From Ricordea florida (taxonomy: Eukaryota > Cnidaria > Anthozoa > Corallimorpharia > Ricordeidae), in the NCBI GenBank assembly GCA_949710005.1, contig OX453273.1, positions 7,660,177 through 7,724,176 of the forward strand: a stretch of 64,000 nt of DNA. Direction: 5' to 3'. Both the position numbers and the translations under genes were made by a program. The notes beneath the pieces were generated by a model. The model had not been told where the DNA came from and searched no databases. It was given only the letters and a program-made list of their open reading frames with translations. Numbering within the stretch: the stretch's first letter is position 1; each line of letters opens with the position of its first letter. Shown here one piece after another: positions 6,737-22,578 of the stretch.

Positions 6737-6741
6737 AGTTA
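6737..6741. repeat. Polinton target-site duplication AGTTA (left)
   Basis: AGTTA directly abuts the left terminal inverted repeat and recurs at 22574-22578 after the right one. The uninterrupted sibling locus near 3230 has a single AGTTA. Polintons usually make 6-bp duplications; only 5 bp are shared here. Confidence 0.85.
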
Positions 6742-7337
6742 AGTAGATGTAAAAAGCGGGTTCCAAGACAATTTTAGCTTATAAGCTAATTTTGACAAAG
6801 ATTTTGTCAGTGATTTCGCGCAATCAAAGATTAAACAAAGTACATGTCGGATGATCGGGTGGGCGGGCGGGTACCTCTGTGAAATTGTTAAGTTTCTGAT
6901 AATCAATAATGAGTGTAGGTAGATTATCACCAAGCCGATACAAAGCCGATACCAACCCAATACAAAGCCGATACAAAAACTATATGAAAGCTGGCACTAT
7001 TCATTACATTATCAAAGATTAAACAAAGTACATGTCGGATGATCGGGTGGGCGGGCGGGTACCTCTGTGAAATTGTTAAGTTTCTGATAATCAATGAATA
7101 GTGCGGATAGGCTGCCGCAAAGCCATCGCCAAACCGCCGCAAAGTCGATGCCAAACCGCCACCAAGCCTATATGAAATTGACACGGAGTCAGCCCTAACA
7201 TAGTCTATATGAAATTGATGCCGGGTTCCAAGACAATTTAGGTTTTGCCTAATTTTGACAAAGATTTTATAAAAAATTGAATTCTAAAAACAGATTTAAA
7301 GGATTAAATTGATTTGATAAAGATGGAACAGAAAAAC
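6742..7337. repeat. Left terminal inverted repeat of the Polinton
   Basis: 596 bp, beginning AGTAGATGTAAAAAGCGGG, matching 21978-22573 in reverse complement. It runs five codons into the polymerase gene. Inside are two 85-bp direct repeats (6823-6907, 7011-7095), each with a GGGTGGGCGGGCGGG block. Two copies of a GGGTTCCAAGACAATTT unit (6758, 7223) are followed by different short palindromes and by AATTTTGACAAAG. GCCGATAC and CCGCAAA mini-repeats lie between. Open frames inside it (6739-7184) follow from the repeat and are not proposed genes. Confidence 0.9.
7294..7322 (+). promoter_or_regulatory. Promoter-like box ATTTAAAGG before the polymerase gene
   Basis: ATTTAAAGG starts 29 nt before the ATG at 7323, inside the TIR. 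The same box therefore precedes the outermost gene at the other end (22021-21993). It belongs to the A(T/C)(T/C)TAAAG(G/A) series seen before most genes of this element. Confidence 0.5.
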
Positions 7338-10300: not shown

Positions 10301-11204
10301 TACATTTGAAGAATCGGCTTGGTTAAAACCTTACATCGATTTGAATACCAAACTCAGGGCTGAAGCAAAGAATGATTTTGAGAAAGATTTCTTTAAGTTA
10401 ATGAATAACTCAGTATTTGGTAAAACAATGGAAAACATTAGAAATAGGGTTGATATTAAATTGGTTACTAATGAAAAAGATGCAAAAAAATTAATAACAA
10501 AACCTAACTATCAACATCGCACTATATTTTGTGAAAATCTTGTGGCCATACATATGAAGAAAAAAAAGTTAGTATTCAATAAACCCGTTTATTTGGGCAT
10601 GTGTATTTTAGATTTAAGTAAAACAATAATGTACGATTTTCATTATAATTATATAAAACCAAAATATGGAGAAAAAGCAAAATTGTTGTTTACAGACACA
10701 GACAGTCTTGTTTACAATATAGAAACAGAGGATTTCTATAAAGAGATAAGCCCTGATGTAAAGTATAAGTTTGACACAAGCAACTTTCCTAAAAAACATA
10801 AATCTGGTATAGAAACCAACATAAATAAAAAAGTTATAAATATGTTTAAGGATGAAGCTGGCGGAAATCAGATAACTGAATTTGTGGGTCTACGAGCAAA
10901 GCTTTATTCCTACAGAATGGATGAGGGTGAAGAAGAAAAGAAATGTAAGGGAATGAAGAAAGCAGTTGTAAAAAAGACCATAAACTTTGATGATTATAAG
11001 AGATGTCTATTAAATAAAGAACCCCAGATGAGAAAGATGAATGTAATCAGAAGCCGCCTACATGATGTTTATACTGAAACGGTTAATAAAGTTGCACTAT
11101 CTGCCGATGATGATAAGAGAATCATTTGTAAAGATGGAATAAATACTTTCGCTATAGGCCATTACCGTTTCAAAACAGAATCTGGCGGAAGTTCTGTATC
11201 ATAA
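7323..11204 (+). CDS. polB: Protein-primed family B DNA polymerase (Polinton pPolB)
   Basis: Replicates the Polinton from its ends using a terminal protein as primer. The frame from the first ATG gives 1,293 residues, a usual Polinton length. Visible in order: an N-terminal basic region of unknown fold, a C2H2-like zinc site CPRC-x-HLEYC near residue 425, the exonuclease box YSDFECYP near 480, an H/C-rich CHIC...HCHLTGKYRGAAHNEC insert near 590, motif A-like YLDANNLYGG near 890, motif B NNSVFGKT near 1027, and motif C TDTDSLV near 1124. All catalytic acids are present, so it is likely active. An upstream TTG-initiated extension of three codons is possible but the ATG is preferred. Its first five codons lie in the TIR. 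The 3' end overlaps the convergent integrase gene by 43 bp. Confidence 0.95.
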   Translation: MEQKNSLNFIEMLKQAIDENGKDLKRLILNQLEKIMKEKGKKVPKDVVLKELRKIPEISAVLDNKIQRLIMDEPIPELNVPILKPNKVFNWGNYSYKVLDEEEFSKKFRDLIRKNVIKITNNKPQKSKRKVNISDSVRDELKENANRFVPKEQQRALRGYLKTHRIDGQKGYGPKTFINKIKPKVIDLINKQKKPIKIKFIFTCKFIKKNPATKQTDENSGYFHSTVEIITSSTDLSELFDTMTNHQLEKVEQFQNEGSGWQFYQVEYFDINIDPFEPFVGSSYINLPQKLAIKNAIINVRNENDHECFKWAVTSAVYKKDIHPERKNKEMIENSKKFNWSGIEFPTSLKQIDRFEKQNPYYTINVYGYDNDDVYPLRISKKQKGYLINLLLISEDENNHYCWIKNMSRLLAAKVSKHKSKMYFCPRCLNAFQSEKSLEKHLEYCSTNKEVKIDMPKDEDGNPKYIKFNNYNRKMRAPFVVYSDFECYPEKIDTCSPNESESFTNKYQKHKASGFSYLIKSFDDKIFPPELVQFTAESPDDDIPQIFAENLEQDIKKIYNKIKYHKKAVDMTEMDKKEYENATHCHICEEKLGEDKVLDHCHLTGKYRGAAHNECNLNYKIPKFIPVIFHNLSGYDAHIFIKNLGATEGKINCIPNNEEKYISFTKQIVVDEFTNKEGKQIEVKRDIRFIDSFKFMSTSLEKLVTNLPKESFRNLNIFYEGEELKLLLRKGVFPYDWFDGLDKLSTNQLPPKDAFYSILNDENISDNDYKHAQNVWKTFNMKTMREYHDLYLMSDVLLLADVFENFRDVCSKNYGLDPAHYYTAPGLAWDAALKITKVNLELLTDIDMLLMIERGIRGGVSMISTRYGKANNPYMKNFDINKIISYIIYLDANNLYGGAMSKPLPTHGFRWMNEKELTYWENMPCILEVDLEYPIHLHDLHNDYPLAPERLLINNVEKLIPNLNNRVKYVVNHETLKLYESLGLKITKIHRGITFEESAWLKPYIDLNTKLRAEAKNDFEKDFFKLMNNSVFGKTMENIRNRVDIKLVTNEKDAKKLITKPNYQHRTIFCENLVAIHMKKKKLVFNKPVYLGMCILDLSKTIMYDFHYNYIKPKYGEKAKLLFTDTDSLVYNIETEDFYKEISPDVKYKFDTSNFPKKHKSGIETNINKKVINMFKDEAGGNQITEFVGLRAKLYSYRMDEGEEEKKCKGMKKAVVKKTINFDDYKRCLLNKEPQMRKMNVIRSRLHDVYTETVNKVALSADDDKRIICKDGINTFAIGHYRFKTESGGSSVS

Positions 11205-12139
11205 GGAATAACCTGCAATTCTTCTCTAACAAATCCTCGTCTCGGACCGCCAACTAAATAATATAAAACCGGTTGATTAGTTGAAATCACACTTCTAGAA
11301 ATATCATAAACTTTTATACTCCAAATAGGATCTGTGGCCCGACTTTTTTCACCACCCTCAAGTTCGCCTGGAGATAATAGATATCTAACTTTAACACTAG
11401 GAGGTAATCTAATCTCATCAAGCCCCACAACTCGTTGATAATTTTTAGTTTTAATATTAACCTCTTTCATTTTTATAGCCTCATCAGGCTCTTTACCGGT
11501 TATTCTTGTTTTTGTATTATTCAAAGTTTTTAGAATAGCTGGTAATCTTTTCACCCACACCCTTGATCGCTCATCACTAATCATTTCCTGCGCATATTGA
11601 TGACTAAATAATCGTTCACCTAATATTCTGTTTGCGTTTTCCACAAATGCTTGGGCTCTATGATTACCAGCTTCACTTCTTTGTATACCCACATTATGGT
11701 AATTCATGAGTTTACTAACTTCGCCCATAAATTCTTTTCCTGGATCAACCATTAATGTTTTGGGATATTTTAACCTTCTAGAATATATTTTTGTAAAAGC
11801 TTCTGATATCTCTCGACTTTCTTTTGAGGTTAATGGCTCCGCATCTTTATATCTCGAGGCGATATCAACCACAACTAACGCATATTTATATGTTTTTCTT
11901 CCAACTCTATCATGCGGTAAAAATAATAAATCTGCTTGGTGAATCTGATTTGGTTTATCTACAGTCCAATGGGGCCTAGGTATATACTTTGGGGCTGGGA
12001 GATAGATTTGCCATATTGCCTGTTTTTGAAGCCATTGTTTTGCCTCATTTTCACTTACTCTAGCCTTCTCAGCTAATTTAGGAATCGCGGAATATCCTTT
12101 CCAATACCCTTTGGCCGAATAATATATTTTTGACATCAT
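11162..12139 (-). CDS. int: RVE-family (retroviral-like) integrase of the Polinton
   Basis: 325 residues; inserts the element into the genome and makes the short target duplication. The catalytic triad is visible as D70 (HQADLLF), D132 (LMVDPGKEF) and E167 (AFVENANR), a D-D-34-E spacing close to the classic DD35E. An N-terminal helical segment (KLAEKARVSENEAKQWL) and a C-terminal beta-rich stretch ending in YYLVGGPRRGFVREEL fit the usual Polinton integrase layout with a chromo/SH3-like end. It is antisense to its neighbours and convergent with the polymerase. It diverges from the 63-codon ORF at 12172, with only 32 bp between start codons. The standard upstream box is not clear; ATTTATAAA lies 28 nt upstream. 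Confidence 0.93.
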   Translation of the reverse strand: MMSKIYYSAKGYWKGYSAIPKLAEKARVSENEAKQWLQKQAIWQIYLPAPKYIPRPHWTVDKPNQIHQADLLFLPHDRVGRKTYKYALVVVDIASRYKDAEPLTSKESREISEAFTKIYSRRLKYPKTLMVDPGKEFMGEVSKLMNYHNVGIQRSEAGNHRAQAFVENANRILGERLFSHQYAQEMISDERSRVWVKRLPAILKTLNNTKTRITGKEPDEAIKMKEVNIKTKNYQRVVGLDEIRLPPSVKVRYLLSPGELEGGEKSRATDPIWSIKVYDISRSVISTNQPVLYYLVGGPRRGFVREELQVIPYDTELPPDSVLKR

Positions 12140-12171
12140 TTAAAAATTAACAAAGTATTTTATAAATTAAA
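12138..12171 (+). promoter_or_regulatory. Promoter-like box ATTTAAAAA plus TATAAATTA
   Basis: ATTTAAAAA starts 34 nt before the ATG at 12172 and overlaps the antisense integrase start codon. A downstream ACAAAGTATTTTATAAATTA string recurs almost unchanged before the capsid gene (12364-12385). Confidence 0.4.
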
Positions 12172-12363
12172 ATGGTGGAGGAAACAAAATTTAGCGAATA
12201 TCAAATTAATCTTATGAAAAAAATTATTAGAAAAAAAATTCTATATATGGAAGATGGTGATAAAATTTTTAATATTATGACTTTAATTCCTGAGGCGAGA
12301 GAGGGTTTATTAAAACATATTGAAAAATTAAAGAATAATAGTGTGAAGAGACTTAAAGGTTAG
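12172..12363 (+). CDS. Small Polinton protein, 63 residues, unknown
   Basis: Not recognised. It is a short, charged, probably helical protein (about 20 Lys/Arg, no Cys, no membrane segment). It is accepted as a gene because it starts 32 bp from the divergent integrase start, stops 22 bp before the capsid gene, carries the box at the usual distance, and shares the ACAAAGTAT(T/C)TTATAAATTA leader with the capsid gene. It could be a small regulator or capsid cofactor, but there is no direct evidence. Confidence 0.6.
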   Translation: MVEETKFSEYQINLMKKIIRKKILYMEDGDKIFNIMTLIPEAREGLLKHIEKLKNNSVKRLKG

Positions 12364-12385
12364 ACAAAGTATCTTATAAATTACA
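12351..12385 (+). promoter_or_regulatory. Promoter-like box ACTTAAAGG before the capsid gene
   Basis: ACTTAAAGG starts 35 nt before ATG 12386 and overlaps the end of the 63-codon ORF. It is followed by ACAAAGTATCTTATAAATTA, the near-copy of the leader before 12172. Confidence 0.45.
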
Positions 12386-13633
12386 ATGACGTCTGAAAAA
12401 ATTAACCCAAATAGAATTCCAAGAGAACCCTTTGGTTTGAAGGCGGAATCAACATTAAATAGAATTACTCTAAATCCATCATCAGCCAGCCCCGGCGAAA
12501 CATTATATATAAATATTCCAAAACTTTCTGAGAATTTAGTGATTGTGCCCGGAAGTGTATCTCTTTTGTTTGATTTAGATGTTGAGGGTCATGCAAATAA
12601 TACGGTTGTTAATAATTTAGCGAGCAATCTTGTATCTAGATTAAAAGTTCTTTTTGGAGGAGAAACATTGCAAGATACTCAAAGATATGATTTATTTCAA
12701 ACATATCGCGATTTATTTTTAACTGAGGAAGAGCGAGAAGATAAATTAAAACAAGGTATTTCTTCCGAAAACATTAGAAAACTTAGAACAAATGCGGGCG
12801 ATGCAAAGAAAACTCAAAAAGAAACAAAGGAAGTAATTCTCGCTAATGTTCACGGATCAAAGTATAGAATACCAATAAACCACCCAATATTAAACGATCA
12901 TGGGGTTTTTTATCCAAAAGCATTAGAAAATCATTTAATATTTGAGATTACACTCGCCCCAATTAATAATATTCTTATTTATTCCGATACAACTAAAACA
13001 CCATCATATTCAATAAAAAACTTAGAATTAGAATATTCTTCAATTTCAAGCGAATACTTAGCCCGCGAGGCACAATCAACATATCAAGTTGGTAAAGGAT
13101 TCTTTTATGAAAATATTACCTTACACAAAACTTTTACATTTTCCATTGGTGGTGATGGTGTTATTAATCAGCATATTAATTTACCGAGAAGATCAATGAC
13201 TGGGGTATTATTTTTGTTTTTATTACCTCAAGCTGCAGGAGCAAGGGATTCTGAAAATTTTTATAATCCAGGTATATCTTCAGTAGAAATTGATGTTGAT
13301 GGTGTGCCAAATAGAATATACTCTAGAGGAATGATTTCATCCGATCTTTGGGAATCCGCGAAAAAACGCTTTCATAGAGATGATGGTTTACAAATTTCAT
13401 TGAAAGAAGGGGATTTTTACACGGACAAGTTTGCTCTTTGGGTTGATACGAGAACTCACCCAGATAATAGTATTCACGGTGGAGGACTAGCTCTAAATAA
13501 TACACACGATGGCGTAAAAATAGAAATAAAAAGGAAACAAAGCGGATCAGGAACTATAACATGTTATATGTTTGTTGTTGCTGATGCAATGATGGAAATA
13601 ATGAATTTAAGTTTGAGATCAATTAAGTACTGA
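12386..13633 (+). CDS. Probable double-jelly-roll major capsid protein
   Basis: 415 residues with no membrane segment, rich in alternating hydrophobic stretches typical of jelly-roll strands. It resembles Polinton/adintovirus capsid proteins in two places: the segment YDLFQTYRDLFLTEEERE...LRTNAGD, and the later YRIPINHPIL...FYPKALENHLIFEITL, where known capsids have YRIPLDF...FYPYGL...FEL. It lies directly before the packaging ATPase, the usual neighbour. It is shorter than many Polinton capsid proteins (often well over 500 residues). The family call is by pattern; a structure prediction would settle it. Confidence 0.65.
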   Translation: MTSEKINPNRIPREPFGLKAESTLNRITLNPSSASPGETLYINIPKLSENLVIVPGSVSLLFDLDVEGHANNTVVNNLASNLVSRLKVLFGGETLQDTQRYDLFQTYRDLFLTEEEREDKLKQGISSENIRKLRTNAGDAKKTQKETKEVILANVHGSKYRIPINHPILNDHGVFYPKALENHLIFEITLAPINNILIYSDTTKTPSYSIKNLELEYSSISSEYLAREAQSTYQVGKGFFYENITLHKTFTFSIGGDGVINQHINLPRRSMTGVLFLFLLPQAAGARDSENFYNPGISSVEIDVDGVPNRIYSRGMISSDLWESAKKRFHRDDGLQISLKEGDFYTDKFALWVDTRTHPDNSIHGGGLALNNTHDGVKIEIKRKQSGSGTITCYMFVVADAMMEIMNLSLRSIKY

Positions 13634-13635
13634 GA

Positions 13636-13668
13636 ATCTAAAAACATAATGTTATGATACAAAAAATC
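13636..13668 (+). promoter_or_regulatory. Promoter-like box ATCTAAAAA before the ATPase gene
   Basis: ATCTAAAAA begins right after the capsid stop codon. It is only 18 nt from the first ATG (13654) but 33 nt from the second in-frame ATG (13669). The latter matches the 31-35 nt spacing of the other genes and argues for the shorter start. Confidence 0.5.
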
Positions 13669-14295
13669 ATGGAAGATTTACGAGATAAAATCCCATTTCA
13701 TTGTATTATAACTGGACCAACAAATTGTGGGAAAACAAAGTACCTAATTGAACAGCTTCGAGGCCCTTTCCGAAAAGTTTTTGATTACATTGTTTTAATT
13801 TGCCCAACTTATTCTAAAAATAAAACATATCATAATTTTGCCCGTGGGGACAAGAGATTCTTTGTATTATCACCCGATGCAAGTAATCTCGATGAGATTA
13901 ATGAATTGTTAAATGATTGCCAAATTTTATTCTCTGGAACAAACACATTAATAATTTTAGATGATTGCGCTGTATCCACCGATCTGAAGAAAAGATCAAA
14001 CAAGTTTATAGATTTAGCATTCTCCGGAAGGCATCATGGATTATCAATGTGGGTTCTAACTCAACAATTAACATCAATAGCAAAACCATTCCGAGAAAAT
14101 GTAGCCTGCGTTGTTACTTTTCATAATCCTTCCCAGAAAGGTATGAAAATGTTTTTCGAAGATTATGGAGGTGATTTGGATTATGAATTAGGTAAAAAGT
14201 TTGTTCAACTCCTAAAAACTGAAAAATATTCTAGGTTATGTTTGAGTTTGCGTTACCCATTTAATTGCTATTTAGAGATACCTGAAGTGATTTAA
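13669..14295 (+). CDS. A32/FtsK-HerA type DNA-packaging ATPase
   Basis: Pumps genome into the capsid in virus-like elements. From ATG 13669 it has 208 residues (213 if ATG 13654 is used). Walker A is GPTNCGKTKYL near the N-terminus, Walker B is TLIILDD, and a sensor-like VLTQQLTSI follows, as in poxvirus A32 and Polinton/virophage ATPases. Length is normal for the Polinton family. It lies 35 bp after the capsid gene and 5 bp before the next ORF, consistent with a morphogenesis cluster. The box at 13636 supports the downstream start. Confidence 0.9.
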   Translation: MEDLRDKIPFHCIITGPTNCGKTKYLIEQLRGPFRKVFDYIVLICPTYSKNKTYHNFARGDKRFFVLSPDASNLDEINELLNDCQILFSGTNTLIILDDCAVSTDLKKRSNKFIDLAFSGRHHGLSMWVLTQQLTSIAKPFRENVACVVTFHNPSQKGMKMFFEDYGGDLDYELGKKFVQLLKTEKYSRLCLSLRYPFNCYLEIPEVI

Positions 14296-14300
14296 CAAAG
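14270..14300 (+). promoter_or_regulatory. Promoter-like box ATTTAGAGA
   Basis: ATTTAGAGA starts 31 nt before ATG 14301, inside the ATPase coding end. One base off the series consensus. Confidence 0.35.
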
Positions 14301-14822
14301 ATGGCAAACGTTGAAGATTACATTGAAGAGGTAAAAAATGATACCAATCAAAGTGAGGATCTTGAAATAAAACAAGAATCGCTGGCTATTATCGCAGTTC
14401 TTGGTACTACAAAGGAATATTTGGGGGTTGATATGAGCCTGGGCGATGTAAAAAAATTATCAGAACGTGATGTAGAAAAATATTTTAATCGTTACCAAGC
14501 GGTAATGGGTAAGAAAATTAACGGGGGGTTGGTAGATTCAACCCTACAATTAGTTTCCAAACTTATTTCATATTTAGTTCCGGTTGATGATATAGAATCA
14601 CTTTGTAATGATTTGAAGAACGATGATTTGGTTAATCGTGAATTAACAAACTTTGTTGGGCTCTTGGCATTGAAAGGAGGAAGATTGGTTGCACTTGCTA
14701 GCGGGCTATTTCAGATTGCTAAACACGTTAAAATAGGAAAAATGCAACAAAAACCAGCAAATTCTATCACAACTGATCAGGAAACTAAGCAATCTACTGA
14801 AGGTATTGATACAGTATATTAA
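14301..14822 (+). CDS. Polinton protein of unknown function, 173 residues
   Basis: Not assigned. It is acidic at the N-terminus (YIEEVKNDTNQSEDLE), then mostly helical with hydrophobic stretches LVDSTLQLVSKLISYLVPV and NFVGLLALKGGRLVALASGLFQIA, and a polar Thr/Gln-rich tail. No zinc or catalytic motif is visible. Its position right after the ATPase suggests a virion-assembly or structural role (inference). Confidence 0.8.
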   Translation: MANVEDYIEEVKNDTNQSEDLEIKQESLAIIAVLGTTKEYLGVDMSLGDVKKLSERDVEKYFNRYQAVMGKKINGGLVDSTLQLVSKLISYLVPVDDIESLCNDLKNDDLVNRELTNFVGLLALKGGRLVALASGLFQIAKHVKIGKMQQKPANSITTDQETKQSTEGIDTVY

Positions 14823-14826
14823 ACAG

Positions 14827-14859
14827 ATCTAAAAACTTATTTGCAGCATCTAAATAACA
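14827..14859 (+). promoter_or_regulatory. Promoter-like box ATCTAAAAA
   Basis: Starts 33 nt before ATG 14860 in a real intergenic gap. A partial second copy (ATCTAAATAACA) abuts the start codon. Confidence 0.5.
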
Positions 14860-15288
14860 ATGACTGAACAATCTGATGAGCAAATTACGGCAGATCCCAC
14901 ACCTGAAAATAAAGATTCTAAAAAGAGGGAGAAAGATCCTAAAAAAGTAGCAGCTGGTAAGAAATTAGCTGAATATAATAAAAAAGCAAAAGAAGCATTA
15001 TCTAGGGAGATGAAACGCAAAGAAAAAATGAAACAGGAAGAAGAGCAAAATGAAAATACATATAGTGAAGCGAAATCGTGGCTTCCAGAGTTATCTTTTA
15101 CTACTGTTTTATCCGTTGTTGGATTAGGGTTTACAGCATTTGATCTTTTTATGAGATATCGGGAAAAAGCTAGGGATGGTTACGCCGAATATAAAAATAG
15201 GATACCTGATTTATCACAAGTTCCGCAAATACCACAGCCGACAAAGATACCATTTTCTGTAACTCCAAAATCTTTAGGAATGGAATAA
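14860..15288 (+). CDS. Small single-pass membrane protein with charged N-terminal helix
   Basis: 142 residues. The first 70 are very Lys/Glu-rich and predicted helical. One hydrophobic segment, SFTTVLSVVGLGFTAFDLFM, follows. The tail is Pro-rich (IPDLSQVPQIPQPTKIPF). Function not known. It is the first of four consecutive small membrane-associated genes, likely virion or envelope components. Confidence 0.8.
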   Translation: MTEQSDEQITADPTPENKDSKKREKDPKKVAAGKKLAEYNKKAKEALSREMKRKEKMKQEEEQNENTYSEAKSWLPELSFTTVLSVVGLGFTAFDLFMRYREKARDGYAEYKNRIPDLSQVPQIPQPTKIPFSVTPKSLGME

Positions 15289-15299
15289 TCTCTAAAGTC

Positions 15300-15333
15300 A
15301 TCTAAAGGTTTCTTAATGATGTAGTAAAAAATT
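15300..15333 (+). promoter_or_regulatory. Promoter-like box ATCTAAAGG (strong example)
   Basis: ATCTAAAGG then TTTCTTAATGATGTAGTAAA, ending at ATG 15334; box to ATG 34 nt. The blocks before 15990 and 17012 share the whole arrangement, including the second TGA(T)TAGTAAA part. Confidence 0.6.
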
Positions 15334-15552
15334 ATGTCAAGCGAAAATAAACTTGTGAAAACTGTAACTGATTCAGCGACACTTATCGGATTAGGGGCTG
15401 GAGTTGGGTATGTAACTAAAAAGATGATGAAAGAATCATTTTTGAATGACCCATCCTCAAGTATTACAAATTATGCAAAATGGGTGGCTGTATTATCCGG
15501 AAGTATGTATCTTAAAACATATTTAGAGGATCAAAAGATTTTACCAAAATAA
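15334..15552 (+). CDS. Small hydrophobic Polinton protein, 72 residues
   Basis: Not assigned. It has two hydrophobic stretches (SATLIGLGAGVGYVTKKMM and KWVAVLSGSMYLKTYL) and could be membrane-associated. It ends one base before the next ATG. Confidence 0.75.
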   Translation: MSSENKLVKTVTDSATLIGLGAGVGYVTKKMMKESFLNDPSSSITNYAKWVAVLSGSMYLKTYLEDQKILPK

Positions 15553-15553
15553 A
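15521..15553 (+). promoter_or_regulatory. Promoter-like box ATTTAGAGG
   Basis: Starts 33 nt before ATG 15554, within the end of the preceding ORF. One base off the consensus. Confidence 0.35.
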
Positions 15554-15946
15554 ATGGCATCAATAGCGATGATGATTGGTGGAGCTATATTGAATGCAAC
15601 AGCATTTACTGGTGGAAATATTCTTACAAAATATTTATTTAGTAAAAATGTTGATAAAGAAAAAATACGACACGATAAAGCATTAGAAAAATATCAAAGA
15701 GATTGGGCAGAATATCAGAAAAATAGACAAAAAATGCTTGATTGGAAAATGAAAAGAAAAGATGAAAAATATCAATCATCAAAAAATATTTCGATTACAA
15801 ATCAGGCTTTTGAATTGTATAGTCAAATGCAGGAGCCAAAATTCTCTAATTATTACAAACCAAGCGATGATCAAAAAACAGGAGAAATGGTATATGTCGG
15901 GGCTGGAATGTTAGGTTTAGGTTATGTAACAAGTAAATTTTTATAG
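15554..15946 (+). CDS. Small Polinton protein with Gly/Ala N-terminus and charged helix
   Basis: 130 residues. The N-terminus (MMIGGAILNATAFTGGNIL) is hydrophobic, a Lys/Glu/Gln-rich segment of about 60 residues is probably coiled coil, and the C-terminus is short and hydrophobic (VGAGMLGLGYVTSKFL). Function not known. Confidence 0.75.
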   Translation: MASIAMMIGGAILNATAFTGGNILTKYLFSKNVDKEKIRHDKALEKYQRDWAEYQKNRQKMLDWKMKRKDEKYQSSKNISITNQAFELYSQMQEPKFSNYYKPSDDQKTGEMVYVGAGMLGLGYVTSKFL

Positions 15947-15956
15947 CTTCAAGCAT

Positions 15957-15989
15957 ATCTAAAGATTTCTTACTGATTAGTAAAAAATC
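15957..15989 (+). promoter_or_regulatory. Promoter-like box ATCTAAAGA (strong example)
   Basis: ATCTAAAGA, TTTCTTACTGA, TTAGTAAAAAATC, then ATG 15990; box to ATG 33 nt. Nearly the same block precedes 15334. Confidence 0.6.
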
Positions 15990-16976
15990 ATGGCAGAAGG
16001 TGGTATTGAACTAGATAATTTAGATCCAACTGAACTAAATGAAACAAAAGATGACGATGATGATGATGAAGATAACGAAAATATGGAAATGATGAATATA
16101 AATACAAATACATCAACAAGTTATCAAAATCCTGGTTATGATGAGGAGGTGGAGGAAGAAAGTTCACTTGGGGGTATTAATGAAAATCAACCCCTTTTAA
16201 AAAAGATGAAAGAAAAAGAAGAAGCAGAAGATGGAATAAAAGTGGCATATCCGCGACCAAAATTTCAAGAATTTTTAACATATCTCAAAGATATAGGGCA
16301 AGGAATAAAAGTGCCTGCCATTAAATTACCAGGTAGAAGTAATGCGGCTGAATATGTTCTTAGAGATGGAGAATTTAGAAATTTTAAAACAGGAGCTAAA
16401 CTTCCTGATGGACAATTAAAAAATGCTTTAGGACCTAGAGCAGAAGAAATTGTGGAAAAAAATAATAGCGAGATTAAAAAGATGAAAGAATTACAAAACA
16501 AAAATAGGGAGGAGAGAAAATTCATTAAGGATAAGCCCTTGAAAACACCAGAGGAAACAGCTAGAATAGAGACTTTAGATGAAGAATTTGATGGCCGTAA
16601 TGATAAAATTATCAAACGAGAGGTTGAGAGTGAGAAAATCTTGGAAAGAATGTCATTACGAGAACGAATTAAGGATATCTTCAAAAAACATGGATTTACA
16701 GCATTTGCGGTTGCTGCCGCTGTTGCTTTAGTAATTAGTGTTATAGTTTCTAATCTTTCAAAGGGTTTATCAACATTAGGTAGGGGGTTGGGAAAAGGAT
16801 TGAAAACTATAGGTAAAAAACTAGGTGAAATATTGCCTGGGATGGTTGGTGCTATCGTGAGCTTTCTTTTCAAAACAGCTGGTGAGGTTATTGGGTTTTT
16901 AGGAAAAAATGCATGGCTTTTGATAATGGCTGTCGTTCTATATTTTGTGGAAAGTATAAAAAGGAAGAGAAAGTAG
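15990..16976 (+). CDS. Acidic membrane protein of the Polinton, 328 residues
   Basis: Not assigned. The first 60 residues are very acidic (runs of Asp/Glu/Asn). The middle is basic and helical. The last 100 residues hold a hydrophobic segment (FAVAAAVALVISVIVSNL), a Gly/Lys/Leu repeat of amphipathic type (GLGKGLKTIGKKLG) and two more hydrophobic stretches ending in a KRKRK tail. It may be a virion membrane-active or minor structural protein; this is inference from composition only. Confidence 0.8.
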   Translation: MAEGGIELDNLDPTELNETKDDDDDDEDNENMEMMNINTNTSTSYQNPGYDEEVEEESSLGGINENQPLLKKMKEKEEAEDGIKVAYPRPKFQEFLTYLKDIGQGIKVPAIKLPGRSNAAEYVLRDGEFRNFKTGAKLPDGQLKNALGPRAEEIVEKNNSEIKKMKELQNKNREERKFIKDKPLKTPEETARIETLDEEFDGRNDKIIKREVESEKILERMSLRERIKDIFKKHGFTAFAVAAAVALVISVIVSNLSKGLSTLGRGLGKGLKTIGKKLGEILPGMVGAIVSFLFKTAGEVIGFLGKNAWLLIMAVVLYFVESIKRKRK

Positions 16977-17011
16977 ATCTAAAGATATCATGTTGAGTAG
17001 TAAAATACAAT
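16977..17011 (+). promoter_or_regulatory. Promoter-like box ATCTAAAGA (strong example)
   Basis: ATCTAAAGATATCATGTTGA followed by GTAGTAAAATACAAT and ATG 17012; box to ATG 35 nt. The box begins within the preceding stop-codon region. Confidence 0.6.
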
Positions 17012-17608
17012 ATGGATGAATACAATAGAATTTACCCTGTATTACCTAATAATCCTGATCCTATTAATTTCAGACTGCAAAAATCAAGCGAAGTATTACA
17101 AAATCTTGAGAAAGAAATTAAACATTACGAAGAAGTAAGGAAAAAATATAATAGAGCTAGAGGAATATGCACAAAAATTAGTGTTTCTGGTGGTTTAATT
17201 TCAGTTATCCTATCAGCAAGCGGTTTAGGAACTTCTCTCACGGGTTTTGGTGCTATTATTGGTATTCCTTTAGGGGTTGTTGGCGGATTTTTTGGTGGGT
17301 TGTCGGTTGGATTTGGTTTTGCTTCTAAAAAACTTTCTGGTAAAGTTAGTAAACACGAACAAACCGCCGCAATTGCAAAATCAAAATTAAACACTATAAA
17401 TGACTTGGTTTCAAAGGCTTTGAAAGATAATGTTATATCCGATCAAGAATTTTCTATAATTTTAGCAGAGTTGGAAAAGTTTCAAAAACTAAAACAAGAA
17501 ATACGACAAAAATTTAGAAAAGAAGCAGAAAAAAACTTGGACATGGGTATGATAAGGAGAGAAGTGCGCGAAAATCTATTAAAAGAATTAACAAATCCAG
17601 GTCATTAA
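17012..17608 (+). CDS. Glycine-rich membrane protein of the Polinton, 198 residues
   Basis: An N-terminal helical region is followed by a long Gly/Ile/Leu hydrophobic hairpin at about residues 53-112 (SVILSASGLGTSLTGFGAII, then GVVGGFFGGLSVGFGFA). A conserved-looking helical tail carries AIAKSKLNTINDLVSKALKD and SDQEFSIILAELEKFQKLKQ. I recall similar proteins being common in cnidarian genomes without known function. It probably inserts in membranes. Confidence 0.8.
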   Translation: MDEYNRIYPVLPNNPDPINFRLQKSSEVLQNLEKEIKHYEEVRKKYNRARGICTKISVSGGLISVILSASGLGTSLTGFGAIIGIPLGVVGGFFGGLSVGFGFASKKLSGKVSKHEQTAAIAKSKLNTINDLVSKALKDNVISDQEFSIILAELEKFQKLKQEIRQKFRKEAEKNLDMGMIRREVRENLLKELTNPGH

Positions 17609-17617
17609 AAATTTCAT

Positions 17618-19243
17618 ATGAGAGAACCGATGTTGGTTGCAATTGTTTTGCAGGAATTAGAAGAGAGGTTAATTCAACCTAAAGACTTGCATATTATCAA
17701 CATAAATAATAATATGGACAAAATAAATAACACTATAACTTTATTAGATGATTTCAAAACCCAATATCCATACGCCAAACTTGATAAATTTACATTTGTG
17801 AATGATTCATATGGGGGATATATTAAATGGAAAGTTAATGGAACAACAGTTATGTCTTATGATGATCCTTCTGGAAAAACATGGACTGATGATCTTCCTA
17901 CTAATTTGAAAACATTATTATGGAAGGATTTGGGGCTTGGTTTGTTTCCAAAGAGTTTATCAACTACAAAACAACCTTATCCAATACCTGCTATTAATTT
18001 TGATGACACTACAACAGATGTAACAAAAACTTTAACCGATTTAGATATATATGTTACAGATAAAAATAAATTCGTTGCTTCTATGAGAAACATATTTAAA
18101 TCACAAGTTGTAACATTTAATTCAGCAAAGGAGTGCGGAAAATGGTCGAATAAACCAGATTTTAATCATTGGCCGCAACAACTTAACTTTGCAGTTTGGT
18201 GTGCAACATCTGGTTGTGGTATAAGTCTTTTTGAAAGCCAAAATTACCCCAAAGTAATTAGCGGTTTTATAAAGTTTCATATATATTTCACAATAAGACG
18301 AATATTGTATGAATTGAAACTTCCCTTGCCAGATGAAAAACCTTTTTCAATAAAAAATAACCCATATAATAAAGTTGCATATAATAAATTGTGTAAAGAG
18401 TTTAGGATTAGTAATAATTCTGACTTTAGGTGGAAGGGTGGAAGAAATAATGGTTTGGGTGATATATTTATTTATTACAGCTCGGGCGGAAATGAAAATT
18501 TACATATTGTAAGAAAAAATGATCACGATGCAAATACTTGGCCTGGGCAAAATAAATTTTATGATGAGGGTTATAAAGATGGAGATGGAAATAAAATCTC
18601 GTTTATTAGAAATGATCAATTTAGTGATTTTAAATATGCTTGGTTTATTCCTGCAACCGGGCATGGTCTAACCAACGCGGGTCTTGGCAGATTAAATCGA
18701 TCCATCGAAGCTTTTGTTTACTGTATATTAGGAGCACAAGTTAATACTAGAACCCCAATTTATGGTGGCGGTGGTGGAGCAATAGAAACACAACAAGAAT
18801 TCAATACTTTATTTGAAAGTTCTGTTATAGAAAATGATACTTCAAAATCTATTCAAAATTACCAAAAATCTGTGTATGAAACTAAATTGCGGCTTGATTT
18901 GGTTGTTGCTCCGGGGGTTTGGTTGATGCCAAGCAATATGATTATAAACAGTGAGAGTGTGGTTGGGTATAATAACAAACTCATGAAAGCTACTAAATTT
19001 ATGAATTTTGGAGTAAATAATGCATTAAATGTTGAAACAAAAAATGTTGGAATAACTCATAGTTTAGGGACATCAAAAGTTTTATTAAATACTAATAAAC
19101 AAAAACCAAAACCAATAATACCAACAAAAGCAGTGCAAACGGATGTAATTAAACCAAAAAATAATGATACAACACAACATCAAAATAATCTTATAATGCT
19201 TGTGGTTGTAGGGGGTGTATTATCTTGGTTTTTATTTCGATAA
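17618..19243 (+). CDS. Large tail-anchored Polinton protein, 541 residues
   Basis: Not assigned. It is mostly a soluble, Asn/Lys-rich globular protein with clustered aromatic residues and Cys (LNFAVWCATSGCGISLFES, FIKFHIYFTIRRILYEL, WFIPATGHGLTNAGLGRLNR). The C-terminal 40 residues are polar linker followed by one hydrophobic anchor (LIMLVVVGGVLSWFLF). It begins 9 bp after the previous stop, so it may be co-transcribed; no clear upstream box at the usual distance. Large size, late position and tail anchor suggest a virion surface or entry-stage protein, but that is inference. Confidence 0.85.
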   Translation: MREPMLVAIVLQELEERLIQPKDLHIININNNMDKINNTITLLDDFKTQYPYAKLDKFTFVNDSYGGYIKWKVNGTTVMSYDDPSGKTWTDDLPTNLKTLLWKDLGLGLFPKSLSTTKQPYPIPAINFDDTTTDVTKTLTDLDIYVTDKNKFVASMRNIFKSQVVTFNSAKECGKWSNKPDFNHWPQQLNFAVWCATSGCGISLFESQNYPKVISGFIKFHIYFTIRRILYELKLPLPDEKPFSIKNNPYNKVAYNKLCKEFRISNNSDFRWKGGRNNGLGDIFIYYSSGGNENLHIVRKNDHDANTWPGQNKFYDEGYKDGDGNKISFIRNDQFSDFKYAWFIPATGHGLTNAGLGRLNRSIEAFVYCILGAQVNTRTPIYGGGGGAIETQQEFNTLFESSVIENDTSKSIQNYQKSVYETKLRLDLVVAPGVWLMPSNMIINSESVVGYNNKLMKATKFMNFGVNNALNVETKNVGITHSLGTSKVLLNTNKQKPKPIIPTKAVQTDVIKPKNNDTTQHQNNLIMLVVVGGVLSWFLFR

Positions 19244-19259
19244 TGTTTTGATTATAAAA

Positions 19260-19268
19260 ATCTAAAGA
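19260..19268 (+). promoter_or_regulatory. Orphan copy of the promoter-like box
   Basis: ATCTAAAGA occurs just after the 541-residue gene on the plus strand, but no plus-strand ORF follows (the next gene is antisense). It may be a remnant of a lost gene, or mark a short RNA. Confidence 0.3.
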
Positions 19269-19287
19269 TGTAATCAAAACAAAATAT

Positions 19288-19749
19288 TTAAACTAAAAAA
19301 CCAATACAACTAAGTTCATTTTTATCATATTTAACTGCTTTTATTTCAACATTAATTTTATCGCCTATTCCAATTTTGTTATTCTTATTTTCGTATGTGT
19401 TAAAAATTTCATCAAACTTATAATCTTTCAAATAAATATGTGGGATTAAAATCTTCATTTTTTCAAAAACTTTAATAAAAATACCTTCTTCATAAACCCC
19501 ACATACTACGCCGGCAACTTTTTGTTTAATTTTTGGTTTATATGTTTTTGCTTCAAATTTTAAAACAAAAAAAGTATCTTTATTATCTACAATTTTTATT
19601 ATACGATTTGCTGAAATAATATATCCATATTCTTTATCAAATTGGCTAAAAGTTACTTTATTGAGTGTTTTTAAAAGATGGTTCATAATATTTTTATCTA
19701 AATATTTAGGTTCAAGATATATACGCCTTTGAAGTATATTAGTTTCCAT
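19288..19749 (-). CDS. RPB7-like RNA polymerase stalk subunit homologue
   Basis: 153 residues. The order of features matches eukaryotic/archaeal RPB7 (RpoE). The N-terminal tip domain has RRIYLEPKYLDKNIMNHLL, then YGYIISANRIIKI, then the domain-joining strand FVLKFEAKTYKPK. The S1/OB domain follows with VAGVVCGVYEEGIFIKVF and IGIGDKINVEIKAVKYDKNE-LSCIGF at the end. Cellular RPB7 is about 170 residues, so this is nearly full length. RPB7 binds the polymerase clamp with RPB4 and contacts RNA and initiation factors; some giant viruses carry a copy. It is not in the usual Polinton set. It could bind host or viral polymerase. It sits antisense between two plus-strand genes. Confidence 0.75.
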   Translation of the reverse strand: METNILQRRIYLEPKYLDKNIMNHLLKTLNKVTFSQFDKEYGYIISANRIIKIVDNKDTFFVLKFEAKTYKPKIKQKVAGVVCGVYEEGIFIKVFEKMKILIPHIYLKDYKFDEIFNTYENKNNKIGIGDKINVEIKAVKYDKNELSCIGFLV

Positions 19750-19769
19750 TTTCTTAATTTTTATAAATA

Positions 19770-19801
19770 ATCTAAAACGCTAATATAATTTAATTAAAAA
19801 T
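19770..19801 (+). promoter_or_regulatory. Promoter-like box ATCTAAAAC
   Basis: Starts 32 nt before ATG 19802, in the 52-bp gap between divergent genes. Confidence 0.45.
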
Positions 19802-20431
19802 ATGTTCAGCATTACAATGTATTATTCTGAAACTAGGGTTTATTTAGATCCTCCAATTAAACACGTTAGTGAATTACAACTTTTAGATTGCAATATAAAA
19901 ACAAAAAGACTAATAACTTTAAAGAATCAAGAAAAAATAACTGATGAACAAGATAAGTCTTTAGTAATATTTAATCCAGGAACATATTCCATAAATGATA
20001 TAAAAATATTAATTGATCTCAGCGAAAAGGGTAAAAATATAACAATGATTATCGGAGATAATTTTGCTTACATAATCAACAATAAAACAATTAACATTAA
20101 ATTTACCCAGGGTTTGCAAAATTCTTTGGGGGTGCCGGAGATTTTATTTAAAATACAACAAATAGATATAACTATAAAAGAACCTTTGAGACTTTTATGC
20201 AGTATAGTTGATAATAGAATGTCATACACAAATAAAGGTAAAAATGGAGATCTTACAAAAATACAACCATCTCAATTGCTAGCAAACATTCCATCAAAAG
20301 ATTACCCATCTATTCCAATTAGAAAATACGATAACTTGATTAATCACTTTGATTTAACCATTTTAGACGCTAATTGGAAAAGGTTTTATCTAAATGGGCA
20401 ATCCGTAACTTTTAGTTTAAGATTTAAATAA
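19802..20431 (+). CDS. Possible minor capsid (penton-like) protein, 209 residues
   Basis: Beta-rich sequence without membrane segment or Cys cluster. The C-terminus FDLTILDANWKRFYLNGQSV-TFSLRF resembles the end of proteins found in other Polintons (a D-x-x-x-x-x-x-F-N-G-x-x-V-x-x-x-L-R-F pattern), which are thought to be virion proteins. A single-jelly-roll penton is plausible on size and position but cannot be proved by eye. Confidence 0.45.
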   Translation: MFSITMYYSETRVYLDPPIKHVSELQLLDCNIKTKRLITLKNQEKITDEQDKSLVIFNPGTYSINDIKILIDLSEKGKNITMIIGDNFAYIINNKTINIKFTQGLQNSLGVPEILFKIQQIDITIKEPLRLLCSIVDNRMSYTNKGKNGDLTKIQPSQLLANIPSKDYPSIPIRKYDNLINHFDLTILDANWKRFYLNGQSVTFSLRFK

Positions 20432-20432
20432 A

Positions 20433-20473
20433 TTTTTGTTATGTAACCATTTATTGGGTTATATAACATAATT
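20433..20473 (-). terminator. 3'-end hairpin, copy 1
   Basis: GTTATGTAACC and GGTTATATAAC form an 11-bp stem with one mismatch and an 8-nt loop, with T/A-rich flanks. It lies between the convergent ends of 19802-20431 and 20482-21105. A near-identical block follows the minus-strand gene ending at 21624 (21581-21621). Position after stop codons suggests a transcript-end signal. Confidence 0.45.
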
Positions 20474-20481
20474 ATTTTTAA

Positions 20482-21105
20482 CTAATCTCCGCCCCATCTT
20501 TCTTTCAAATCTCTTAACTCTTCAAAATCAATACACCAATCTAAATACCTAGATGGGTGCCATGCTACTGTCATTAATTCATCATGTAATGGTTTGTAAA
20601 ATAACTCTTTATGCTCAATCTTATATTCACTTAAATCAACACTTACATGTAATTTTTTTATTATAAAATTTTTATCAAATACATCAATTTTACATTCATC
20701 ATCATGATAAGCAAGATAAACATCATTTTCATAAAAATGACCAATTTCCATTCCGTTTGCAATAATCATACCATAATGTGGATCATATTCATATTCATAT
20801 TCATTTTCAATAAAATCATAATTAGCTATTTTTAAAATTTTTTTCGCAAATTTACTAGTGTTAATACCACTAACTCCAAAATTTGTTTCTTCACCAAAAT
20901 AAATATAATGTTCAAAAGCATAATTTTTATTATAATATTCTACATCAAAATTTATTGGATAATAAAAAATAATTTTTTGATTATAATAAATTATATATTC
21001 CCTATTTTTTGTTAAATTTTTTAATAAGTTTTCTTTTATTTCTTCTATAAAATCGCAAATATTAAGCTTCTTATTGTTTAAATATTTAATATTTAATTTT
21101 TTCAT
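20482..21105 (-). CDS. Polinton protein with giant-virus-type C-terminus, 207 residues
   Basis: Function unknown. Very Tyr/Asn/Ile/Lys-rich, with an acidic YEYEYDPHYGM stretch. The last 30 residues (VAWHPSRYLDWCIDFEELRD) follow a W-H-P-x-R...W-C-x-D pattern that I recall from short uncharacterised proteins of mimivirus-like and phycodnavirus-like giant viruses. The start is supported by an ATTTAAAGA box 35 nt upstream, which overlaps the stop of the preceding minus-strand gene. Confidence 0.75.
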   Translation of the reverse strand: MKKLNIKYLNNKKLNICDFIEEIKENLLKNLTKNREYIIYYNQKIIFYYPINFDVEYYNKNYAFEHYIYFGEETNFGVSGINTSKFAKKILKIANYDFIENEYEYEYDPHYGMIIANGMEIGHFYENDVYLAYHDDECKIDVFDKNFIIKKLHVSVDLSEYKIEHKELFYKPLHDELMTVAWHPSRYLDWCIDFEELRDLKERWGGD

Positions 21106-21140
21106 TGTTTTATTTTATATTTTATATTTTTTCTTTAAAT
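21106..21140 (-). promoter_or_regulatory. Promoter-like box ATTTAAAGA (minus strand)
   Basis: Starts 35 nt before the ATG at 21105. The box overlaps the stop codon of the upstream gene, so the two signals share bases. Confidence 0.5.
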
Positions 21141-21526
21141 CAATTTTTATTTTTACATTCTTTACAAGAAGCTTTTTGTTTGCCGTGTTCGCATATTTGT
21201 GATCCGCCGCATTCTTTACATTGTTGTTTTTGATTATTGTGTTTACATATTTGTGTTCCCCCACATTCTTTGCAGCGATATTTATATCTATTATGCTTAC
21301 AATTATACCTATTACAATCATTACAAAATTTTTTTAATTTCCCATGATCGCAAATAATTTTGCTAGTTGTGGTAACTTTTTCAATTAACTTATCAATATC
21401 CACATCTGTAAATTTTTTAATTTCATCAATTAGCTCTTTTTTACTCATTTTTGATCTTCCTTTAATTTCTAGATCTTTTGCCATTAATTTTAATTCATAA
21501 GTATATAAATATCTTAATTGTTCCAT
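21140..21526 (-). CDS. Cysteine-repeat (C-x-H...C-x-x-C) protein with SAP/Rho_N-like start, 128 residues
   Basis: Residues 1-40 (YTYELKLMAKDLEIKGRSKM then SKKELIDEIKKF) look like a SAP or Rho-N helix-extended-helix DNA/RNA-binding motif. Residues 60-125 hold about four zinc-binding repeats of the type I-C-x-H-x-x-x-K-x-x-C-K-E-C-G-G. Such repeats are known to me from giant viruses and some algae and oomycetes, often behind the same N-terminal motif. It is a paralogue of the next gene. A nucleic-acid-binding or regulatory role is inferred. Confidence 0.85.
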   Translation of the reverse strand: MEQLRYLYTYELKLMAKDLEIKGRSKMSKKELIDEIKKFTDVDIDKLIEKVTTTSKIICDHGKLKKFCNDCNRYNCKHNRYKYRCKECGGTQICKHNNQKQQCKECGGSQICEHGKQKASCKECKNKN

Positions 21527-21560
21527 TTTAATTTTTGTTAAATATTGAACGTCTTTAAAT
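21527..21560 (-). promoter_or_regulatory. Promoter-like box ATTTAAAGA (minus strand)
   Basis: Starts 34 nt before the ATG at 21526, in a true intergenic gap. Confidence 0.5.
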
Positions 21561-21580
21561 CAATTTTATTCTACACCTTA

Positions 21581-21621
21581 TTTTTGTTATGTAACCATTT
21601 ATTAGGTTATATAACATAATT
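21581..21621 (-). terminator. 3'-end hairpin, copy 2
   Basis: Same sequence as 20433-20473 except for the loop base and flanks, just after the stop codon of the minus-strand gene at 21624-21992. Confidence 0.45.
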
Positions 21622-21623
21622 TT

Positions 21624-21992
21624 TTATTCATCTTGTTTTTCACAAATTCTACAAAACCATCTTTGTTTCCCATGAATACATATCCCTCTCCCATTACATT
21701 CTTTACATTGATACCTCCTCCGTTTATGCTCACAAATACTGCCGCCATTACATTCAATACAACGCGATTTCTGTTTTTTGTGTTCACATATTTGTGATCC
21801 TTCACATAACATACAGTAATATTTTAATTTATCGTGAATACACTTATACTTATTAGTTTTTGTTTGTTTTATATGGGGAGTTATAAAATTTTCTAAAGCT
21901 TCAATAAGTTGTTCTTTACACAGCCTATAATATCTCGGTATCCTCCTCTCTTTGGCGAGGAGTTTTAATTCTTTCACGTTTTTCTGTTCCAT
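21624..21992 (-). CDS. Cysteine-repeat protein with Rho_N-like start, terminal gene, 122 residues
   Basis: Begins MEQKN like the polymerase because the first five codons lie in the shared TIR. An N-terminal LKLLAKERRIPRYYRLCKEQ-LIEAL segment fits a Rho_N/SAP fold. Four C-x-H-x(6)-C-x-x-C repeats follow (CEHKKQKSRCIEC, CEHKRRRYQCKEC, CIHGKQRWFCRIC). Paralogue of 21140-21526. As the outermost gene on the right it uses the same TIR promoter as the polymerase, so it may be expressed with replication genes. Confidence 0.85.
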   Translation of the reverse strand: MEQKNVKELKLLAKERRIPRYYRLCKEQLIEALENFITPHIKQTKTNKYKCIHDKLKYYCMLCEGSQICEHKKQKSRCIECNGGSICEHKRRRYQCKECNGRGICIHGKQRWFCRICEKQDE

Positions 21993-22573
21993 CTTTATCA
22001 AATCAATTTAATCCTTTAAATCTGTTTTTAGAATTCAATTTTTTATAAAATCTTTGTCAAAATTAGGCAAAACCTAAATTGTCTTGGAACCCGGCATCAA
22101 TTTCATATAGACTATGTTAGGGCTGACTCCGTGTCAATTTCATATAGGCTTGGTGGCGGTTTGGCATCGACTTTGCGGCGGTTTGGCGATGGCTTTGCGG
22201 CAGCCTATCCGCACTATTCATTGATTATCAGAAACTTAACAATTTCACAGAGGTACCCGCCCGCCCACCCGATCATCCGACATGTACTTTGTTTAATCTT
22301 TGATAATGTAATGAATAGTGCCAGCTTTCATATAGTTTTTGTATCGGCTTTGTATTGGGTTGGTATCGGCTTTGTATCGGCTTGGTGATAATCTACCTAC
22401 ACTCATTATTGATTATCAGAAACTTAACAATTTCACAGAGGTACCCGCCCGCCCACCCGATCATCCGACATGTACTTTGTTTAATCTTTGATTGCGCGAA
22501 ATCACTGACAAAATCTTTGTCAAAATTAGCTTATAAGCTAAAATTGTCTTGGAACCCGCTTTTTACATCTACT
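21978..22573. repeat. Right terminal inverted repeat of the Polinton
   Basis: Reverse complement of 6742-7337, same 596-bp length, no difference seen in the parts compared. Open frames at 22131-22612 are repeat artefacts. The box ATTTAAAGG (22021-22013, minus) stands 29 nt before ATG 21992. Confidence 0.9.
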
Positions 22574-22578
22574 AGTTA
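22574..22578. repeat. Polinton target-site duplication AGTTA (right)
   Basis: Matches 6737-6741. The sequence then continues as in the uninterrupted copy near 3233. Confidence 0.85.

Follow-up and report, generated by a model that had tools for sequence, protein, structure and literature searches.

A predicted RPB7-type RNA polymerase stalk subunit maintained by a Polinton lineage of Ricordea florida

Polintons, or Mavericks (Polintoviricetes, adintovirus-like elements), are known by their long terminal inverted repeats (TIRs), rve integrase, PolB-like polymerase, A32-type packaging ATPase and capsid family, and their usual target-site duplication is 6 bp. The stretch of DNA considered here (hereafter the window: 64,000 nucleotides of the corallimorpharian Ricordea florida, contig OX453273.1 of assembly GCA_949710005.1, positions 7,660,177 to 7,724,176 of the forward strand) contains an element that has such TIRs, an rve integrase, a PolB-like protein, an A32-type ATPase and a protein of the capsid family. 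Unlike described Polintons, it carries a gene for an RPB7-like RNA polymerase stalk subunit between two genes designated g541 and g209 (all genes of the element are listed in the last section), its target-site duplication is 5 bp and no cysteine protease was recognised in its scanned open reading frames (ORFs). As far as the literature found shows, the transcription of Polintons is an open question, on which a single polymerase subunit in a 16-kb element with no other recognised one gives a direct handle. The finding is also relevant to the way in which transcription genes may have accumulated, one after another, in large DNA viruses.

The RPB7 of RNA polymerase II (Pol II; human 2c35 chain B), the archaeal Rpo7 and the RPC25/RPC8 of Pol III have in common with the element protein a tip-plus-S1 architecture, the order of the two domains and the fold. 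The element protein is shorter (153 amino acids (aa) versus 171–172 aa in the RPB7 of Pol II), is about 23–24% identical to the human protein and, unlike cellular RPB7, is encoded by a mobile element with no other recognised polymerase subunit. Virus-encoded stalk subunits of the same fold are found among the nucleocytoplasmic large DNA viruses: D339L of African swine fever virus, Rpo18 of poxviruses and RPB7 of Mimiviridae. Unlike the element RPB7, these belong to full viral polymerases, and viral matches of the element protein at E <= 1e-4 are only 9–21% identical. The presence of RPB7 in Mimiviridae is documented in the available part of PMC3620924. Mavirus-type virophages and the endogenous mavirus-like elements (EMALEs) share with the element a Polinton-like gene set and a promoter motif repeated upstream of genes; they differ in that their host is a protist for which a giant virus is known, and the portion of their description consulted does not mention RPB7 (PMC8547959).

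Within the open-licence literature, as represented by titles, the starts of abstracts and term counts, no polymerase subunit is reported in Polintons, and the one text in which "Polinton" and "RPB7" were found together concerns Drosophila ras85D. By term search, RPB never occurs in PMC11071308 or PMC11071296, which have RNA polymerase once each (in a reference title and for RNA viruses, respectively). RNA polymerase is never matched in PMC10120064, is matched in the reference list alone of PMC12220804, and is matched for large DNA viruses and linear plasmids alone in PMC10328495. Judged from this literature, the carriage of RPB7 by Polintons is likely new.

The RPB7-like gene and its maintenance

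19288..19749, minus strand: intact gene for the RPB7-like stalk subunit, 153 aa

The protein consists of an SHS2-type tip domain (about residues 1–66) followed by an S1/OB domain (about residues 71–147), and its match to the RPB7/Rpo7 family is collinear over the full length. In Pfam, S1 is the stronger match (3.4e-8) and the tip of the window protein (P0001) alone falls below the cut-off; the tip domain is recognised at E <= 0.01 in 74 of the 81 members of the P0001 family. Profiles rank Pol II RPB7 (1.2e-11) ahead of archaeal Rpo7 (3.8e-4) and Pol III RPC8 (0.44), and structure alignments give 20–24% identity to human and fruit fly RPB7. A sequence-only reading of this DNA had proposed an RPB7-type stalk subunit lying within a Polinton. 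The proposal is borne out on both counts: integrase, capsid and packaging genes are present in the same element, and the profile and structure comparisons extend beyond S1 to the tip, which rules out the generic S1 protein that the same reading had named as the outcome against it. Judged by profile and predicted fold, the gene product is a true RNA polymerase stalk subunit of the RPB7 type. Searched against BFVD, P0001 has 29 viral fold matches at E <= 1e-4, not all of them named, with identities of 9–21%; its PHROGs matches are two weak ones to unknowns and one to a nuclease model that covers the S1 part.

The genome (537.8 Mb, 48 contigs) was searched for further copies, and 150 of the 211 candidates were scored. 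These 150 matches are 61–100% identical and form several diverged families; 148 have no internal stop and the other two have one TAG each. Selection was estimated on 26 copies (28 loci minus two repeats of the same places), picked across the identity range rather than at random. The ratio of nonsynonymous to synonymous substitution (dN/dS; NG86, with no correction for the strong AT bias) has a median of 0.385 and a maximum of 0.87, and reaches 1 in none of the 324 pairs used (out of 325, one being outside the dS limits). Mean conservation over 26 copies is 0.83 in the tip versus 0.78 in S1; since the tip is as conserved as S1, the half that docks on the polymerase is argued to be in use. The neighbourhood is also kept: among 20 copies spread over the identity range, g198 and g541 stand on one side of RPB7 in all 20 and g209 on the other side in 18, g207 taking the place of g209 in loci L016 and L019.

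A protein search with RPB7 retrieved three relatives and a profile search 80, those three included. In a tree with the genome copies, P0002 and P0003 fall among or beside the copies of this genome, and their source may be this species or one very close to it. More distant are P0125 (55% identity) and the partial P0142 (59%), whose contigs, 13.9 and 14.7 kb, have the length of an element. In another tree these four and the window protein group together (100/99), inside a 26-row group (100/98) that belongs to a metagenomic RPB7 family, with a branch of 2.27 setting it apart from the four cellular RPB7 included; the RPB7 trees have long branches, and the bootstrap of the tree with the genome copies had not settled. 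Contigs of 106–164 kb carry three members of the metagenomic family, and for some members JGI gives the name Rpb7. The family carries no organism names, and named giant-virus proteins were reached by fold alone: the BFVD viral matches of the family member P0153 at E <= 1e-3 are at most 24% identical. A proven giant-virus origin is not claimed, P0001 and P0153 both matching BFVD viral proteins at low identity. No confirmed relative was found among IMG/VR viral contigs with RPB7, capsid, g207 and PolB queries, and no relative in the genome-contig collection and phage records. The capsid relative P0008 and the RPB7 relative P0139 both have a longest contig of 7881 bases, which may be a shared contig or chance.

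The sequence-only reading had also allowed for a recent chance capture seen in no other element. This is contradicted by the 150 matches in the genome together with database relatives down to 55–59% identity; recent capture from the host is likewise ruled out by the about 23–24% identity to human RPB7 and by copies spanning 61–100%. Sequence, predicted fold, copy number and selection together establish that the Polinton lineage maintains RPB7 as a working gene of its own.

Promoter-like box, 3' hairpins and elements lacking RPB7

A promoter-like box, ATYTAAA, is found 29–35 nt before the ATG of many genes of the element in the window (positions below are relative to the start of the gene named).

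7293..7301, plus strand: box GATTTAAAG, -30 of PolB; the same sequence stands before g125 in the right TIR
14826..14834, plus strand: box GATCTAAAA, -34 of g142
15300..15307, plus strand: box ATCTAAAG, -34 of g72
15956..15964, plus strand: box TATCTAAAG, -34 of g328
16976..16984, plus strand: box GATCTAAAG, -36 of g198
19769..19777, plus strand: box AATCTAAAA, -33 of g209, lying between that gene and RPB7
21133..21141, minus strand: box GATTTAAAG, -36 of g207
21553..21561, minus strand: box GATTTAAAG, -35 of g128
22014..22022, minus strand: box GATTTAAAG, -30 of g125 (TIR copy)
19259..19267, plus strand: orphan box AATCTAAAG, right behind g541, with no gene start behind it

Between -27 and -38, ATYTAAA precedes 9 of the 16 starts in the window (PolB, g63, g142, g72, g328, g198, g209, g207 and g128), versus a mean of 0.36 and a maximum of 4 in 20,000 shuffles; this zone was picked after the sites had been seen, and g72 was sought since a lone box stood before it. 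A 12-mer motif search over 14 independent upstream regions scored 131.0–135.7 (five seeds) versus a mean of 110.0 and a maximum of 119.1 in 200 shuffled sets, given 120 restarts each like the real set. An earlier run gave 132.2 (120 restarts) versus a maximum of 122.5 in 60 shuffled sets that had 40 restarts, a setting that favours the real set. The 12-mer consensus ends in GATTTAAAG. These runs put the g209 site elsewhere, and the g209 box rests on the pattern scans of the window and of the other copies.

The scan of the other copies relaxed both pattern and zone a little (AT[CT]TA[AG]A, -26 to -40); it is less open to bias than the window count, although these copies share descent. It found the box frequently before g198 (19/20), g209 (23/25), g72 (3/3), g173 (2/2), g142 (2/3), g130 (2/3) and g207 (4/7), more rarely before the major capsid protein gene MCP (1/3) and the ATPase gene ATP (1/3), and not before g328 (0/1); the PolB start was in view in none. 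It was found before RPB7 in none of 25 copies and before the integrase gene INT in none of three. The shared box put forward by the sequence-only reading has thus held up, preceding 9 of 16 starts and persisting before g198 and g209 in copies that have diverged. As a sequence motif the box is real, with the strongest case for g198 and g209 and a patchy one for some genes, and RPB7 stands consistently outside it.

Hairpins lie behind some of the same genes:

19244..19281: hairpin with an 11-bp stem TGTTTTGATTA/TAATCAAAACA, at the common 3' end of g541 and RPB7
20437..20468: hairpin TGTTATGTAACC..GGTTATATAACA, at the common 3' end of g209 and g207
21585..21616, minus strand: near-copy of the g209/g207 hairpin, behind g125

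Shuffled sequences gave a stem as good as that of g541/RPB7 in 0 of 100 cases for either gene, as that of g209/g207 in 1 and 7 of 100, and as that of g125 in 2 of 100. The g541/RPB7 stem is kept in 23 of the 26 copies (10–13 bp) with a changing loop, and 1 of 520 shuffles does as well.

Some elements lack RPB7. In the left element of locus L015, g541 (561 aa) and g209 (211 aa) are both open and only 50 nt apart, and the orphan-box stretch of the window, box included, corresponds to the sequence directly before this g209. RPB7-bearing copies have a second box beside g209, and the orphan box has decayed in several of them. In a second RPB7-less element (L012), g541 is split in two, g209 is again preceded by a box, and a foreign stretch is present. 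Because the orphan box matches the g209 promoter region of the RPB7-less element, RPB7 would have entered, or left, between an old promoter and g209; the RPB7-less junction may be ancestral or may be the product of a deletion between two box copies. The GC content at third codon positions (GC3) is lowest in RPB7 (0.123) and g207 (0.125), the other 13 of the 15 genes measured ranging from 0.163 to 0.260, as a foreign origin of these two would give. The RPB7-less right arm of L015 (119–3702), which has open g541, g209, g207-like and g128-like genes, adjoins an RPB7-bearing element in opposite orientation.

A possible role in transcription and its alternatives

The element thus has a stalk subunit under constraint, no other recognised polymerase subunit (none by Pfam in the 15 element ORFs of at least 80 aa and the two right-TIR ORFs, g63 and g72 being unscanned) and a box that the RPB7 gene itself lacks. 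This arrangement suggests that the RPB7 of the element redirects a polymerase that the element does not encode. The sequence-only reading had made a similar proposal, namely that the protein could adapt a host or giant-virus polymerase to promoters of the element. The proposed scheme is that, early after activation, RPB7 and the integrase, both box-less, would be made by the host polymerase. The RPB7-like protein would then dock as the stalk of a DNA-dependent RNA polymerase whose core comes from outside the element, and the stalk-swapped enzyme would favour the ATYTAAA promoters that precede the PolB gene and several late-looking genes. The default and least risky choice of core would be host Pol II, since among solved structures its RPB7 is nearest in sequence; the alternative would be a core supplied by a large DNA virus that co-infects the host. 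That a stalk subunit kept by the Polinton biases a borrowed core towards the box promoters seems to us evenly poised between right and wrong. The broader idea, that this animal Polinton lineage runs its own transcription system, with box, 3' hairpins and a stalk subunit that starts the programme from outside the box regulon, either by retooling Pol II or as the first animal virophages with an undiscovered large DNA virus, is plausible and somewhat more doubtful.

Several observations weigh against this scheme. No RPB4 partner was found by Pfam in the same ORFs. The strict box is absent at 7 of the 16 starts in the window (INT, MCP, ATP, g173, g130, g541 and RPB7), and in other copies it is patchy before g128 (6/20) and g125 (4/14). 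It was found before g541 in none of 11 copies, and since g541 lacks it too, the absence of a box does not by itself mean "early". Lastly, the RPB7-less elements of L015 (left) and L012 (second) carry the same kind of g209 box, so that RPB7 in cis cannot be a general requirement of the box; among the many copies it might act in trans, or the ordinary polymerase might simply read the box.

The element might instead be a virophage-like satellite read by the polymerase of a large DNA virus of the same animal, with an RPB7-like subunit fitted to that polymerase, the box as a viral promoter and the hairpins as a termination or polyadenylation signal. This we regard as rather unlikely, and the evidence cuts both ways. 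The genes of mavirus carry the late promoter TCTA of Cafeteria roenbergensis virus (CroV), according to the part of PMC8547959 consulted, and TCTA is found in the box of five of the nine boxed genes of the window; however, this motif is short and the other four read TTTA. The hairpins behind g541/RPB7, g209/g207 and g125 resemble those which, in the available part of PMC4402537, act as polyadenylation signal at the transcript ends of Mimiviridae, and the first is the one kept in 23 of 26 copies; yet 11 of 16 genes have no stem of at least 9 bp behind them, and a few shuffles equalled the second and third (1, 7 and 2 of 100). Both resemblances, to mimivirus and to mavirus signals, are likenesses that do not prove a common machinery. 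The nesting of RPB7 (100/98) in the metagenomic family, away from the four cellular RPB7, would suit a viral source, as would the lowest GC3 of RPB7 and g207 if that source were AT-rich; this family, however, is not tied to named giant viruses (at most 24% identity for P0153), and this host has no known helper virus.

A role in post-transcriptional RNA binding, in which S1 would act on the stability, export or translation of element mRNAs and the protein would never dock on a polymerase, appears improbable. In its favour are the stronger Pfam match of S1 and the fact that cellular Rpb4/7 also acts away from the polymerase; the conserved tip is argued, as said above, to be in use for docking. 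Less probable still is a decoy that would compete with host RPB7 and dampen either transcription in the host or its response to the element, without selecting promoters. A stand-alone subunit with no recognised partner would fit such a decoy, but nothing seen ties the protein to host gene control and the same element has a box before many of its own genes. Capture of a host gene by chance and without function has a negligible probability, having in its favour nothing besides the existence of RPB7-less elements and against it the 148 of 150 matches free of internal stops, a dN/dS below 1 in all 324 pairs and an identity to human and fruit fly RPB7 (20–24%) too low for a recent event.

The Polinton and its other genes

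6742..22573: complete Polinton of 15,832 bp
6737..6741: target-site duplication AGTTA, left
6742..7337, plus strand: left TIR, 596 bp, identical to the right arm
7323..11204, plus strand: DNA polymerase B-like protein (PolB), 1293 aa
11162..12139, minus strand: rve integrase (INT), 325 aa (rve 1.4e-8), with no ATYTAAA box upstream
12172..12363, plus strand: small ORF g63, 63 aa, ATTTAAA at -34
12386..13633, plus strand: major capsid protein (MCP), 415 aa (Capsid_N, E 0.0011, weak and below the cut-off)
13654..14295, plus strand: A32-type packaging ATPase (ATP), 213 aa (Pox_A32 2e-11)
14301..14822, plus strand: g173
14860..15288, plus strand: g142
15334..15552, plus strand: g72, a small gene of 72 aa with a box at -34
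15554..15946, plus strand: g130
15990..16976, plus strand: g328
17012..17608, plus strand: g198, with a box in 19 of 20 copies
17618..19243, plus strand: g541, hydrophobic over a stretch at its C terminus; adjoins RPB7 in all 20 copies read
19802..20431, plus strand: g209, next to RPB7 and divergent from it in 18 of 20 copies
20482..21105, minus strand: g207 (GC3 0.125)
21140..21526, minus strand: g128, Rho_N (SAP-like) domain and Cys/His repeats
21624..21992, minus strand: g125, related to g128
21978..22573, minus strand: right TIR, 596 bp
22574..22578: target-site duplication AGTTA, right

The identical 596-bp TIRs, the AGTTA on both sides and the combination of rve integrase, A32-type ATPase and predicted double-jelly-roll capsid protein, the last with a weak Capsid_N match, assign the element to the Polintons. 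No Ulp1/adenain-type cysteine protease was recognised in the scanned ORFs (at least 80 aa), a scan that small or diverged forms could escape. The PolB-like protein shows, by eye, the motifs DANNLYG, KLMNNSVFG and DTDS, which we take to be those of family B; it has no Pfam polymerase match at E <= 1 and no polymerase match in PDB. The MCP family has 987 database relatives; a PDB sequence search with its profile gave no match, and such searches identified neither g209, g207 nor PolB. The product of g209 is suspected to be a minor capsid protein. For g207, no significant match was found in Pfam, PHROGs, NCBIfam or PDB, and the gene is poorly conserved across many copies (28–64% identity).

Each TIR contains an internal pair of 167-nt direct repeats that are 80% alike (6823–7177 and 22138–22492). 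The small gene g72, which lies under the 80-aa ORF cut-off, has a counterpart of 93% identity in L028. In the g128/g125 region (21140–21992), both products have a Rho_N/SAP-like N terminus and Cys/His repeats, and the repeat matches are multiplied in L012, L021 and L025. The element is flanked by rhodopsin-type receptor, BTB and Pao retroelement genes.
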